Assembly (NCBI GenBank): GCA_903854185.1
Contig: CAINVP010000063.1
Span: 1 to 38,094, forward strand
Origin: an uncultured Actinomycetes bacterium
GTDB taxonomy: Bacteria > Actinomycetota > Actinomycetes > Nanopelagicales > Nanopelagicaceae
Length of the DNA: 38,094 bases
Reading direction: 5' to 3'
Positions 11,591 to 17,347 of this stretch are shown here, in pieces; position 1 is the stretch's first letter, and every line of letters begins with the position of its first letter. Below the pieces are notes generated by a model. It was not told the DNA's origin. It saw only the letters and a list, made by a program, of their open reading frames with translations, and searched no databases. Both the position numbers and the translations under genes were made by a program.

Positions 11591-12508
11591 GTGAGTGTGC
11601 CAAGAATTGCAGTTGCGTTGGTGACAACTCATTACCAACCCGAGCAATCAGAGTTCTATGCTCGCGTCGCTGACTTTGGTATGGATTTCTACACGGTCGT
11701 TGACTCGCAGACTGCTATTGCTGGTGCTCCGATTAGCCACGGCATCTACCAAGTCGACGATCAGCTCTGCCTGGCGGCCGGCTTAAGTCGAATGAATCCA
11801 ACAAATCCCAAGGTATCCCAAGTCTGCGCCTGGGAGAAGGCGCTCTATCTCTTTACCCATGTAAAGCAGGACTACGACTACATCTGGATAGTGGAATATG
11901 ACGTCTTCACACCCGTTATTGAGGTCTTCGATTTACTTAACAAGCGCTTTACGGAATCAGATTGCCTAGCACGCAAATTACATTACATACGAGATTCCCG
12001 GTTTGAACCATGGCCTGATGCCAGACTCTCCCCAACTCACTTGCTGCCCCAACCATGGGCAAGAGCGATGGTCTGTGTAGCAAGATTCAGCAGCGAACTT
12101 CTGAATTCTGTCGCCAACTTCGTCTCTTCCCACGATCAATCAGAGATGGATTTCGCCCCCATTGAGTTCATCTTCCACACCATTGCACTTCGAGATGGGT
12201 TGCGCATCAACCATGCGAGGGAATTTAAAGATGTCACCTTTCGACACCGTCGACGCTTTCTCTTCTTTTTCCAGGAGAGTGAATGGCAACCACAAGAGAT
12301 CTCCAGAAACCGCTTCTATCACGCAGTAAAGACCTGGGATGCCCAGGTTTTGCTCCGCGAAAGATTCGAAAACTTCTCTCCAGCCCAGCGTCTCTGGTGG
12401 CAGGCAAAGGCGCTGGCACGTTTCAAGATTGCTTACATTACAAAGGCACCGCTCTTCTATATCAACTTAATCAAGCGCTACTCCGCAGCGATTCGCTCGG
12501 CAAAGTAA
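11591..12508 (+). CDS. Putative GT-A-like glycosyltransferase, uncharacterised
   Basis: 305 residues from GTG 11591; a second in-frame GTG lies at 11597. The N-terminus IAVALVTTHYQPEQSEFYARV looks like the first strand and turn of a nucleotide-diphospho-sugar transferase. VCAWEKALYLFTHVKQDYDYIWIVEYDVFTP has the pattern of proteins whose Glu/Asp pair (E-Y-D-V) sits where the DXD metal motif does. The rest is rich in aromatic and basic residues (FRHRRRFLFFF), and the C-terminus is basic (LIKRYSAAIRSAK). There are no membrane segments or signal peptide. I cannot name a family with certainty. Its neighbours (GalU, a surface protein) fit a glycan role. It is transcribed divergently from the permease across 72 bases. 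Confidence 0.5.
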   Translation: MSVPRIAVALVTTHYQPEQSEFYARVADFGMDFYTVVDSQTAIAGAPISHGIYQVDDQLCLAAGLSRMNPTNPKVSQVCAWEKALYLFTHVKQDYDYIWIVEYDVFTPVIEVFDLLNKRFTESDCLARKLHYIRDSRFEPWPDARLSPTHLLPQPWARAMVCVARFSSELLNSVANFVSSHDQSEMDFAPIEFIFHTIALRDGLRINHAREFKDVTFRHRRRFLFFFQESEWQPQEISRNRFYHAVKTWDAQVLLRERFENFSPAQRLWWQAKALARFKIAYITKAPLFYINLIKRYSAAIRSAK

Positions 12509-12511
12509 GAG

Positions 12512-12537
12512 ACCCCCGCACCTTTCGGTACGAGGGC
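12512..12537. terminator. Probable bidirectional terminator between convergent genes
   Basis: An imperfect hairpin occupies the 48-base gap between two convergent genes. CCC-CGC-ACC on the left pairs with GGT-ACG-AGGG on the right, across a TTTC loop with two mismatches. A T-containing tract follows on the plus strand. The position is right for a shared terminator; the stem is not perfect. Confidence 0.45.
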
Positions 12538-12556
12538 CTTACTTACTATTTACTGA

Positions 12557-15500
12557 TTACTTCGCAGCAATCTCCACGCGACGGTTCTTCGCCTGTCCTG
12601 CCTCTGTGTCATTGGAGACCAAAGGATTTGTATCTGCGAACCACTTCTTGACGAAGGTGAGTTCGACATTAGGAAGGTGTGAGACCAGATACGCCATGAC
12701 GGCGTTATCGCGGTTAAGTGAGAGTGTCTTGTTGTCATAGCTGCCAGCGCCGTTGTTATCGGTGTGGCCGTTAAGAGCAACAGATGTGTATCCGCGTGAC
12801 TTGATGACGGCAACAACGCGCTTCAAAATCTTGATAGCCGCTGGCGTGAGGTCATATGAAGCCAAGTCGAAGTTCACATTGGCGATTACAACGCGGTCAT
12901 TGCTGTAAGGAACGGTGATCTTCGTCGCCTCGGAATCACCATCCTTTGCAGTAACAATGAGTTCATCCTTAGGGCCAACGCGAACTGGAAGGTTGACACG
13001 GCCGTTTTCGACTGTGACTTCTACCGGCGCACCATTGATGGTGAGAGTAATGGTCGTAGTCGACGTAGGAAGTGTGATGGTGAAGTACTGGTAAGGCGGC
13101 GCCATGCGATTACGAGCCGTAATCTCAGGGACATCGCCAGACTTAACTGGGCCAACGGTTACTTGAGGCGCAGGGACAGGAGTTGTTGTCGCAGGCGCTG
13201 GGTTTGGGGTTGGAGTTGGGGTAACAGTTGGTGTTGGTGTTGGTGTTGGTGTTGGCGTAGGTGTCGGAGTTGGGGTGACAACCGGAGCCGGATCAACAAT
13301 CACGGTAACTGTGTAGTACTTCGTTGTGCCATCTGGGGCAGTCACGATGTAGGTAACAGGTGAGGTGAAGTTATTTGTTGTAACGCCAGGGATTTGGAGC
13401 AGAGGTCCCACGAAGGCAATTGCTGGAGCAATCAAGGCGAAGTTCAATGGCAGCGCCGTGATAACCGTTCCGTAAGGAACGTGAATGGTCACATTGGTAC
13501 CTGAAATTGTTCCCACATTGCTACCGATGTTGGCGCTCTGAATATCCTTGTTATAGATAATTGCAGGGCCAGTTGGGGCAGGAGCAGGTTCGCTCCAATG
13601 TGCGTAGTACGTGGTTGCAGTTGTCACGATGGTAGAACTCGTTACTTCAGCTCCACCTTCAAGTGCGGTAAACCAACCATTAAAGACCGAATTTGGTCCC
13701 GCGTGGGTCGGTAGCGGAAGACCTTCAGCTGTCGAGGAGCCGGTGCTAAGCGCATCACCCGAGAAAACATCTGAGGAGAACGGATCTGGGCTGATAACGC
13801 CGCCGTTAGGATCAAAGTGAACTGTTACAAGAGCTCGAACGGTCAGAATTCCGGTGATCATGCGGTAATTTCCGAAATTCTCGGTGTCATTTGTTGGACG
13901 ACATGCGATTGTGTAATTGCCAGGTTCCGAGATTGCGCTAAGCACAACTGGTGTTAGGTAGTGGATGTCGCTGTTTGCAAATACGCCACAGTTCAAACCA
14001 CTCTCAGCACCTGCATTAAGCGGATAGAAACTTCCAGTGAGCGAAGGTTCCGTTCCACCGACTGTGAAGTTCTGATTATCAGCAGTCACTGTATAAGAGC
14101 TGACTGAATTGTTAATCCATTGGGCGTAATAGGTGGTGTTCCCTGTTGGAGTCTCCTGTGAGAGATCGGTAACTAGATATGTCGGATCCCAAGTAGGAAT
14201 AGTGCTCCAACCATCAAAGGTCATCAATTCATGTGTTGGCGTTGGGAAAGGATTGTAGAAACCAGTGGTCAGGTTGCTACCTGACACGATTCCTTCCGTG
14301 AGCGTCTCACCTGTTGCATGGCCATCAAAGGCGCCCATCGTTGGATCTAAGGTGATGACATATGGAGTCTGAACTGTCAGAGTTCCGTTAATCAGAATTG
14401 GGGTTCTGAATCCGGAATGTGCTGTGGCGGTACAGTGAATTACATATGTACCAGCAGCAAGGAAGGAGTTAAGAACAAGAGTAGTGCTGTAACTTGTATC
14501 TGCACTCGTGTACGCAGCACAGGTTGGCGTATCAGTGACTCCACCGTTAGGCGATACTACGGATGTAAGCGTGGGTGACGGATCGCCGGCAAGGTATACC
14601 GCGCTATTTGCGGTGACTGTCACTGTTTCTAGTGTCGTGTCGTACCAATGCGCGTAGTAGGTGACATCTCCAGTTGGGACTGTCGTTACGTCAATCAAAG
14701 AACCGACACCATCTGTTGCAGACGTGTACCAGCCAAGGAAGTTATGCCCGGTCCACGTTGGAGTTGGGAGCCCACCAGATGTGAGCGTTCCTGTTGAAAG
14801 TGCCGCATCAGCGGTGATGGTCTCACTAAATGGTGAAGGCGAAAGCGCATCTCCACCATTGGGATCGAAGCTAATGGTGTGATCTGTAGGAACTGGATTT
14901 CCATACAGATTTGGATTTGTTGAACAGAGTTCAGCGTCACCGGTGTAATTAAATACTGCGGTGATTGCCTCATTTGTTACATTTGAAAGTGACCCAACAT
15001 CGGCACCTTTCTTGAGGTGAATTCCAAAGAGCGGAGCCGATAAGCCAATATGAGAATTGAAGCTGGCGAGATCAACAGAACCAGTTGAGGAAATCGTTGC
15101 AGTATCAACGATGATGCCTGCCTGATTGAAGAGCGTTACATAACCACCATAAGCGGCGGCCGGCGTTGCCGGCGTGACCTGGAGCGAGGAGAGGTTGAGA
15201 ACCGTATCGCTGCTCGTAAAGCATTGTTGATTTACGCTAATGTTTGAGAGCGGTAGAACAGAACCATTTGTTCCGCATTCGCCACCGGTATAAGCGTCAA
15301 AATTCTGAATCTGACCGCTGCCACTATGGGAGTTTGCCCAGAGACAGGTTGGATTTGTAGGGTCTTGGGTGATTGTGTACAGCAATGACATGTTACTAAA
15401 TGACTTTGCCGTCTCGAAGTTGCTACATGCTGCGTGAGTTGCGTAGTCATAGCAAGCCACGGTTACAGCGTTCTGCTGTGGGAAATAGAGACGCGTTCCC

Positions 15501-16630
15501 ACTGTGGCCGGATAACCAAACGAAGAGGTCACAGCCGAGGTCAGTCCTTCCGGTGCTGTTGTGCTCGTGAATCCGTTCTGAAAGTCTCCACATTTCCACG
15601 ATGAGACCGGTGGTACTGAGCCATCGAACCCGCCCAAACAGAATCCAGTCGTAGCTCCAGTAGTCGGGCTTAAGACAGGGAATGGTGTTCCATTGACACC
15701 ACTTGGAAGTTCTATTGGCCACGCGTTGGAACAGTTCGAATCATCAATGAGATTGGTGCATGCCACGATAACCCTATATGTATCTGTATCCACACGATGG
15801 TTAGCCATAGTGATTAAATAATGATCGAAAAGGGAAAGTCCCCCGCCACCAATATCAATGTTGCTGAAAATTCCAGAAGCATTATCAATTGAGAAAAGAT
15901 TTTCAGAGCAAACATCCTGAGTATCCATATTGAAACACATCATCTTGTTTGCTAAAGATGACGTGACTCGAGGAAGGACGATGGGAGGGTAACTCATGTA
16001 ATCTAAGTTTGCGCCAACATTGAAAGCGTAAATTTTATTCTTATATTGATACTGCTGGCCAAGGGGAACATATGCGCTCTCGGCACCAGTTACTGAAAAG
16101 TGAACATCACCATTTCCACCTGTGGGAGTAAATTTCACGAAAGTTGGATTTGATGCACTATTGATGTCGATTTGGACAACACCGAAGGTAGCTGTCCTCG
16201 AATCAACGGTATAGAGGTAGAGCATTCCGTTGCTCTGATCAATAGTAAAAAGTGGCCCGCCTGGAGTAGGAAAGTGATCTCCGGTTGCATAACCGGTGCC
16301 GCTGTTTGTCGCAGTGATGACCTTGGTGCCGCCTGAATAACAATCTCCGGCATTCGACTGGTACTTGCAAGCGAGCGTTAAATCTGCAAGATGGTGGAAG
16401 ATGTTGTATACGCGACCCTGAAAGAAGCCAACCGAGTAGCCATCTCCGCCAGAGGAACCGGAGAAAGATCCGGTTGGTGGCGGATTAATAATGTTTGTCA
16501 CCGAGTACGACTGTGATGTGACGGTCGCCCGCGCTGCTGGCGCGCTGACAATTGAGATACCTGTCGCTGCTAGTGCGAAGATGAGGGTGAGGCGGATAGC
16601 TTTTGCGAAGCGATTAAACATCGATGGCAC
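12557..16630 (-). CDS. Giant secreted surface protein: beta domains, three InlB-type repeats, Thr-Pro linker, OmpA-like C-terminus
   Basis: 1357 residues. A signal peptide (about 1-35, ending SAPAARA) starts at ATG 16630 or, less likely, the ATG three codons on. Residues 36-580 are a Cys-, Gly- and aromatic-rich beta region, perhaps a propeller. Three InlB/Listeria-Bacteroides-type repeats follow near 584-663, 755-839 and 935-1013. Each opens like FDPNGG and closes YYAHW or YYAQW, and MBG-like beta modules near 665-750 and 842-930 separate them. A cadherin-like module ending GTTKYYTVTVIV lies near 1025-1115, then a Thr-Pro linker (about 1118-1160). The OmpA domain spans 1244-1357: FDLASYDL, LNGHTDNNG, LSLNRDNAV and KNRRVEI, keeping the Asp and Arg that grip diaminopimelate. 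It is probably anchored to peptidoglycan by that domain, since no LPXTG motif is visible. A function in adhesion or cell-cell contact is inferred. Confidence 0.85.
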   Translation of the reverse strand: MPSMFNRFAKAIRLTLIFALAATGISIVSAPAARATVTSQSYSVTNIINPPPTGSFSGSSGGDGYSVGFFQGRVYNIFHHLADLTLACKYQSNAGDCYSGGTKVITATNSGTGYATGDHFPTPGGPLFTIDQSNGMLYLYTVDSRTATFGVVQIDINSASNPTFVKFTPTGGNGDVHFSVTGAESAYVPLGQQYQYKNKIYAFNVGANLDYMSYPPIVLPRVTSSLANKMMCFNMDTQDVCSENLFSIDNASGIFSNIDIGGGGLSLFDHYLITMANHRVDTDTYRVIVACTNLIDDSNCSNAWPIELPSGVNGTPFPVLSPTTGATTGFCLGGFDGSVPPVSSWKCGDFQNGFTSTTAPEGLTSAVTSSFGYPATVGTRLYFPQQNAVTVACYDYATHAACSNFETAKSFSNMSLLYTITQDPTNPTCLWANSHSGSGQIQNFDAYTGGECGTNGSVLPLSNISVNQQCFTSSDTVLNLSSLQVTPATPAAAYGGYVTLFNQAGIIVDTATISSTGSVDLASFNSHIGLSAPLFGIHLKKGADVGSLSNVTNEAITAVFNYTGDAELCSTNPNLYGNPVPTDHTISFDPNGGDALSPSPFSETITADAALSTGTLTSGGLPTPTWTGHNFLGWYTSATDGVGSLIDVTTVPTGDVTYYAHWYDTTLETVTVTANSAVYLAGDPSPTLTSVVSPNGGVTDTPTCAAYTSADTSYSTTLVLNSFLAAGTYVIHCTATAHSGFRTPILINGTLTVQTPYVITLDPTMGAFDGHATGETLTEGIVSGSNLTTGFYNPFPTPTHELMTFDGWSTIPTWDPTYLVTDLSQETPTGNTTYYAQWINNSVSSYTVTADNQNFTVGGTEPSLTGSFYPLNAGAESGLNCGVFANSDIHYLTPVVLSAISEPGNYTIACRPTNDTENFGNYRMITGILTVRALVTVHFDPNGGVISPDPFSSDVFSGDALSTGSSTAEGLPLPTHAGPNSVFNGWFTALEGGAEVTSSTIVTTATTYYAHWSEPAPAPTGPAIIYNKDIQSANIGSNVGTISGTNVTIHVPYGTVITALPLNFALIAPAIAFVGPLLQIPGVTTNNFTSPVTYIVTAPDGTTKYYTVTVIVDPAPVVTPTPTPTPTPTPTPTPTVTPTPTPNPAPATTTPVPAPQVTVGPVKSGDVPEITARNRMAPPYQYFTITLPTSTTTITLTINGAPVEVTVENGRVNLPVRVGPKDELIVTAKDGDSEATKITVPYSNDRVVIANVNFDLASYDLTPAAIKILKRVVAVIKSRGYTSVALNGHTDNNGAGSYDNKTLSLNRDNAVMAYLVSHLPNVELTFVKKWFADTNPLVSNDTEAGQAKNRRVEIAAK
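13199..13279 (-). repeat. Simple repeat encoding the Thr-Pro linker
   Basis: On the plus strand this is a run of GGTGTT/GGAGTT-type hexamers; read on the coding strand it gives alternating Thr-Pro with a few Val. It is a low-complexity coding repeat and a likely site of length variation by slippage. It is not a CRISPR array: the units are only six bases and have no spacers. Confidence 0.8.
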
Positions 16631-17017: not shown

Positions 17018-17347
17018 CTATCGCCCACGCTTAAAGAGTGAGGGCCTCACTTTATTTACCGCTTCAATCGTAAGAACTGCGGCGATTGGAATCACTAGAA
17101 AGAAGAGGTACTCCTCGAGCGGAATATGAAAGGGGCCGAATATCCCAAGTATCTGTGCCGGATCAAACCACCAGTTATGGCGATGAATCGCAATCGCATC
17201 CCACAGTAGGAAACCAAGGGCGACCGGGGCGATAGATAGAGAAAGTCGGCGCACCTGCTTAAGTACGCCGACTTTAAGGAATATCTCTAACCAGAATGAA
17301 CCAACAACGGTGAAGGTGAGCATCGCCACATAGCCGTAGTGGTTCAT
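17018..17347 (-). CDS. crtYc: Lycopene beta-cyclase subunit CrtYc (heterodimeric type)
   Basis: Partner of the preceding gene. The 109 residues contain the classic lycopene-cyclase-domain block LLWDAIAIHRHNWWFDP followed by ILGIFGPFHIPLEEYLFFLVIP. This includes the PLEE catalytic-type motif and three membrane segments. The start ATG (17347) reads MNHYGYVAML and lies nine bases after the stop of the DsbA-FKBP gene, so it is part of the same transcription unit. Product: beta- or gamma-carotene-type rings from lycopene. No crtE/B/I genes are nearby; the rest of the pathway must be elsewhere. Confidence 0.82.
   Translation of the reverse strand: MNHYGYVAMLTFTVVGSFWLEIFLKVGVLKQVRRLSLSIAPVALGFLLWDAIAIHRHNWWFDPAQILGIFGPFHIPLEEYLFFLVIPIAAVLTIEAVNKVRPSLFKRGR

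Follow-up and report, generated by a model that had tools for sequence, protein, structure and literature searches.

Accounts of surface display in Gram-positive bacteria usually centre on sortase motifs or a few non-covalent domains. The consulted part of a review of monoderm surface display (PMC5817068) does not mention OmpA. In the sections consulted of a survey of CshA-type adhesins, Gram-positive species carry sortase motifs only and OmpA anchors are predominantly found in Proteobacteria (PMC10952558), which makes the pattern of OmpA tails reported here of interest. For A. baumannii OmpA, D271 and R286 are reported, in the part of the article consulted, as critical for association with diaminopimelate (DAP) (PMC6572160).

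The window, that is, the whole stretch of 38,094 nucleotides analysed here, derives from an uncultured Nanopelagicaceae bacterium (GCA_903854185.1, contig CAINVP010000063.1, positions 1 to 38,094, forward strand). A preliminary description had proposed that it encodes a 1357-residue surface-type protein with an OmpA-like end. The open reading frame is real and lies on the minus strand, which had not been stated; the plus-strand frame over 12557-16630 is interrupted by stops. The C-terminal domain resembles the PF00691 domains of YiaD, Pal, A. baumannii OmpA and Rv0899 in being full length and in carrying the DAP-contacting Asp and Arg and the NRR motif. Unlike those proteins, the domain here ends a giant secreted repeat protein that has neither a beta-barrel nor a lipid anchor. 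With OmpA-anchored fibrillar adhesins the protein shares a head, a repeat stalk and a C-terminal OmpA anchor, but its host is an actinobacterium and its stalk and head belong to families other than those in the consulted part of the survey (PMC10952558). The PF09479 family of the stalk is that of internalin-type proteins with InlB B-repeats, from which the protein differs in having no LRR match or sortase motif and in using OmpA as its anchor. A literature search by title and start of abstract returned no description of OmpA-tailed giant proteins in these bacteria. We read the protein as a fibrillar-adhesin-like secreted protein whose OmpA tail would sit on a DAP-containing wall, and as a member of a lineage-wide set of modular giants; we give this reading a probability of about 0.6. 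The features of the gene are collected in Table 1.

Table 1. Positions of the features of the giant gene in the window
Feature	Position	Strand	Basis
Gene, secreted multidomain protein, 1357 aa, GTG start	12557..16630	minus	ORF translation
Signal peptide, residues 1-36	16523..16630	minus	basic start, hydrophobic 11-29, AxA-type cleavage region; site judged by eye
Cys-rich head, residues 37-580	14891..16522	minus	four CX8C pairs
Repeat stalk, residues about 584-1015	13586..14881	minus	three List_Bact_rpt (PF09479) stretches
Beta-sandwich-like module, residues 1020-1112	13295..13573	minus	weak DUF5018 match
Thr-Pro linker, residues 1116-1155	13166..13285	minus	composition
Short module preceding tail, residues 1160-1242	12905..13153	minus	
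OmpA-like C-terminal domain, residues 1243-1357	12560..12904	minus	Pfam match 12581-12871
Asp1291 codon, invariant Asp of GHTD motif	12758..12760	minus	tail alignment
Arg1307 codon, invariant Arg of LSxxR motif	12710..12712	minus	tail alignment
Candidate terminator hairpin, 13 pairs	12510..12539	minus	directly 3' of stop

The OmpA-like end proposed earlier, together with the HMM search suggested for it, is borne out by a PF00691 match at residues 1254-1350 (E 5.8e-11; 43 bits against a curated cut-off of 27.2; profile positions 2-98 of 98). The nearest PDB chains by sequence are YiaD (7.6e-12), the OmpA-family chains 7bba and 5m38, and mycobacterial Rv0899 (9.1e-11), and the Asp, Arg and NRR motifs of the tail line up with those of YiaD and Rv0899. 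A canonical alignment (A1) covers 19 tails. Besides that of the window, it takes in 16 tails of congeneric genomes and single tails from two genomes of the family, G034 and G036; its residue numbers carry an offset of 1242, confirmed at four residues. Gly1288, Asp1291, Leu1303, Arg1307, Arg1350 and Arg1351 are invariant in 19/19 of these tails, a count that leaves out five Asp-less tails (A2). The Asp/Arg pair, whose absence had been named as grounds for rejecting the preliminary description, is thus present as D1291 and R1307. We take the pair to be the probable equivalent of D271 and R286, a correspondence drawn from motifs in common, that of A. baumannii OmpA among them, and from the alignments with YiaD and Rv0899. 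MurE of the host genome carries a DNPR motif, which marks meso-DAP-adding enzymes. This points to a diaminopimelate wall in the host, so that the wall should hold the DAP ligand.

The A2 tails come from contig C44 of the host genome, G027, G022 (twice) and G029. They have GYAQ or GYAE in place of the Asp and retain the Arg in 5/5 cases. Profile comparison by hhalign relates them to the canonical tails with 98% probability, and they match OmpA structures (Rv0899 at 1.5e-8); the C44 tail itself scores 19.7 with PF00691 against the cut-off of 27.2. From their motifs, the A2 tails are not expected to show the usual mode of DAP binding, and because all five are without the Asp, the tail may persist for reasons besides DAP binding. 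They lend some weight to a protein that is mainly released, its OmpA-like tail serving at the C-terminus as a stable cap or for assembly and having no hold on the wall, since the OmpA fold with Gln or Glu for Asp implies that some tails can do without DAP binding. The invariance of Asp and Arg in every canonical tail, that of the window included, and the DNPR motif of the host MurE argue against release, which we regard as unlikely. The C44 protein (L031:5544-8120) is a second large protein of the host, an 858-residue frame with laminin-G and Ig matches ahead of its GYAQ tail. A third group of tails (A3: C79 of the host genome, L055, L063 and L064) looks similar to OmpA by eye, a likeness that is not established, as hhalign gave 6% probability and a PDB profile search no match. 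The C79 protein (L051:1563-6791), from a frame of 1742 residues, has List_Bact_rpt (11 stretches), LRR_5 and laminin-G matches. Its C-terminal domain (GYxY...WVAVSYR), whose OmpA likeness is likewise not established, is common to giants of G006, G011 and G019.

Secretion, as proposed, agrees with the signal peptide, in which hydropathy and a pattern scan place APAARA after the hydrophobic core. Other anchoring routes were sought in the same protein. The pattern scan found no LPXTG-type motif except LAATG within the signal peptide, and the hydropathy scan no C-terminal hydrophobic or membrane segment, in keeping with what the preliminary description had supposed. A search of the genome with PF00746, the sortase-signal model, gave no match in the window gene. 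There is no lipobox, because the first Cys is residue 88, and neither the whole protein nor residues 1-580 alone gave a Pfam match to an N-terminal outer-membrane beta-barrel.

One internal segment, residues 1056-1074 within the beta-sandwich-like module, is hydrophobic (KD 2.13 over 19 residues). It could speak for a protein held by the cytoplasmic membrane, spanned by this segment, or by an outer mycolate-type layer; a hold by such a layer has been proposed for some mycobacterial OmpA-domain proteins. Since the N-terminus is exported, a span here would leave the OmpA domain on the cytoplasmic side. In addition, L068 has an alignable module (E 4.7e-10) in which the counterpart of the segment is, by eye, less hydrophobic and strand-like. 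On these two grounds we rejected the span and judged the segment to be more probably a strand. The missing beta-barrel match also counts against membrane retention, which we consider quite improbable.

The earlier claim of attachment without sortase holds for the window protein, which has no sorting signal, and fails for the genome, which encodes one sortase (C101:6475-6837; locus L052:6439-8678). Adjoining it is a 534-residue Ice_binding and SpaA_2 protein whose end combines LPNTS with a hydrophobic segment and basic residues; it scores 12.2 bits with PF00746 against a cut-off of 20 and is, by these features, a probable sortase substrate. On the other side of the sortase lies a 565-residue Thr-Pro-rich protein. 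With a sortase and the LPNTS protein beside an OmpA-tailed protein free of a sortase signal, the host cell seems to have both routes of display. Sortase matches occur in 7/31 other genomes of the genus, and of the 17 genomes in the genus that carry OmpA, the window's own included, 11 have no detectable sortase.

N-terminal to the stalk, residues 1-580 contain a Cys-rich head that is distinct from the List_Bact_rpt repeats and was missing from the preliminary description. Its CX8C pairs lie at 88/97, 232/241, 291/300 and 393/402, and when residues 1-585 were shuffled 20,000 times, one shuffle had as many such pairs. The even spacing of the pairs suggests a head of repeated blades, perhaps a beta-propeller. 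The head gave no Pfam match, and a two-sequence head profile no match in the PDB. A search of the other 59 genomes found one homologue of the head, in G028 (L035, 1258 aa), with 35% identity over the aligned head, and that protein likewise has List_Bact_rpt repeats and an OmpA tail. Single-sequence AlphaFold models of residues 36-580 (mean pLDDT 34.4) and of the C-terminal 198 residues (43.6) were too poor for use. The InlB-type repeats anticipated for the stalk were recovered by the HMM check as three PF09479 stretches (E 2.7e-19; 69.5 bits against a cut-off of 27). The Thr-Pro linker was also recovered, residues 1020-1160 being 22% Thr and 18% Pro, and its DNA contains a 6/12-bp tandem repeat at 13204-13280. 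Among the ORFs of L031-L070, loci selected for OmpA or List_Bact_rpt matches, phmmer found nothing that matched the short module at residues 1160-1242. Of the parts that characterise fibrillar adhesins, the protein thus has the stalk and the anchor, together with a head for which neither Pfam nor the PDB supplied a match.

OmpA-domain proteins, many of them giant, occur in 16/31 other genomes of the genus; the remaining 15, some of them incomplete, gave no OmpA match. Of 296 genomes sampled evenly across the phylum, 78 gave an OmpA match, mostly in frames of 200-650 aa. The domain is therefore less unusual in actinobacteria than had been implied, and giant size is the rare part. Besides the window's own, frames of at least 1000 aa in this sample were confined to G177 (two) and G345 (a partial match), lengths being taken from stop to stop and clipped at contig ends. 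Such frames occur in 10/37 genomes of the family (own included) versus 2/295 other sampled actinobacterial genomes (Fisher's exact test, 5e-9, a value that is descriptive only because the genomes share descent and are not independent). The search that covered the family added one frame of this size outside it (G051, 1179 aa). The OmpA-type tails end varied architectures, including fn3/LRR_5 (L047), laminin-G/Ig (L031, the host's C44) and List_Bact_rpt (L035), although tail frequencies in L031-L070 are biased by the selection of these loci for those very matches. On our reading, the giants of the lineage form a set in which heads and stalks are exchanged while the OmpA-type tail is shared. A scan of the full-length window protein against genome contigs gave no relative, and a plasmid search distant OmpA proteins only. 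Relatives sought through the DsbA-FKBP neighbour (80 loci) came from freshwater-type actinobacterial records, including Nanopelagicaceae and Planktophila; they contained no OmpA protein, the matches being DsbA/FKBP in other gene contexts. In L033, L036 and L039, OmpA-tailed proteins of 633-852 aa adjoin oppositely oriented ORFs of more than 1800 aa, which have an NE(S/T)GFxxQRR stretch in common. The very large ORF of L036 contains a HCHLLGHEEGDMM stretch, which we take to be multicopper-oxidase-like.

It had further been suggested that a glycosyltransferase (GT)-like neighbour and GalU glycosylate the protein. A glycosylated-adhesin locus formed by the three genes would suit their adjacency, the Thr-rich linker and a PMT-like gene elsewhere in the genome (a partial match). 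The GT-like gene, however, has no Pfam or NCBIfam match, and a search of the other 59 genomes found it in none of them. Of 14 window neighbours compared by blastp (E 1e-8) with L031-L070, not one lies near the OmpA genes there. As the GT-like gene and the neighbourhood do not recur, the idea has no genomic support, and we consider such a locus very improbable. The gene called GalU has its best match to TIGR01099, below the cut-off of that model. Immediately upstream of the giant gene, a small lycopene-cyclase-domain gene (TIGR03462) occupies 17018-17347; positions 11591-12508 encode a 305-residue protein that has no Pfam or NCBIfam match and none in the other 59 related genomes. Terminator-type hairpin sites are no more numerous in the region than in shuffles.

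From sequence comparison, the window protein is best read as anchored non-covalently to the wall. The protein would be exported by its signal peptide from a small freshwater actinobacterium of the Nanopelagicales/acI type, and its OmpA domain would use Asp1291 and Arg1307 for a non-covalent hold on the DAP side chain of peptidoglycan. The wall would be spanned by the Thr-Pro linker, the InlB-type repeats would form the stalk, and the Cys-rich head would face outward and bind a target; this topology and the adhesive role of the head are what we infer from the domain order. A known domain seems to serve in an unusual role that is regular in the lineage. More tentatively, and with the odds slightly against the proposal as a whole, freshwater Nanopelagicales-type actinobacteria, taken to be single-membraned and genome-streamlined, may show giants with swappable heads and stalks by means of sortase-independent OmpA tails, with a Gln/Glu class of tails that has changed its ligand or retention. 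The Asp-less paralogues are a natural setting for testing the role of the OmpA domain in the absence of DAP binding. If the reading is true, abundant freshwater bacteria, often without any sortase gene, would have an extra route of surface display for their largest secreted proteins, and adhesin surveys restricted to sortase motifs in Gram-positive bacteria would overlook display by OmpA tails.
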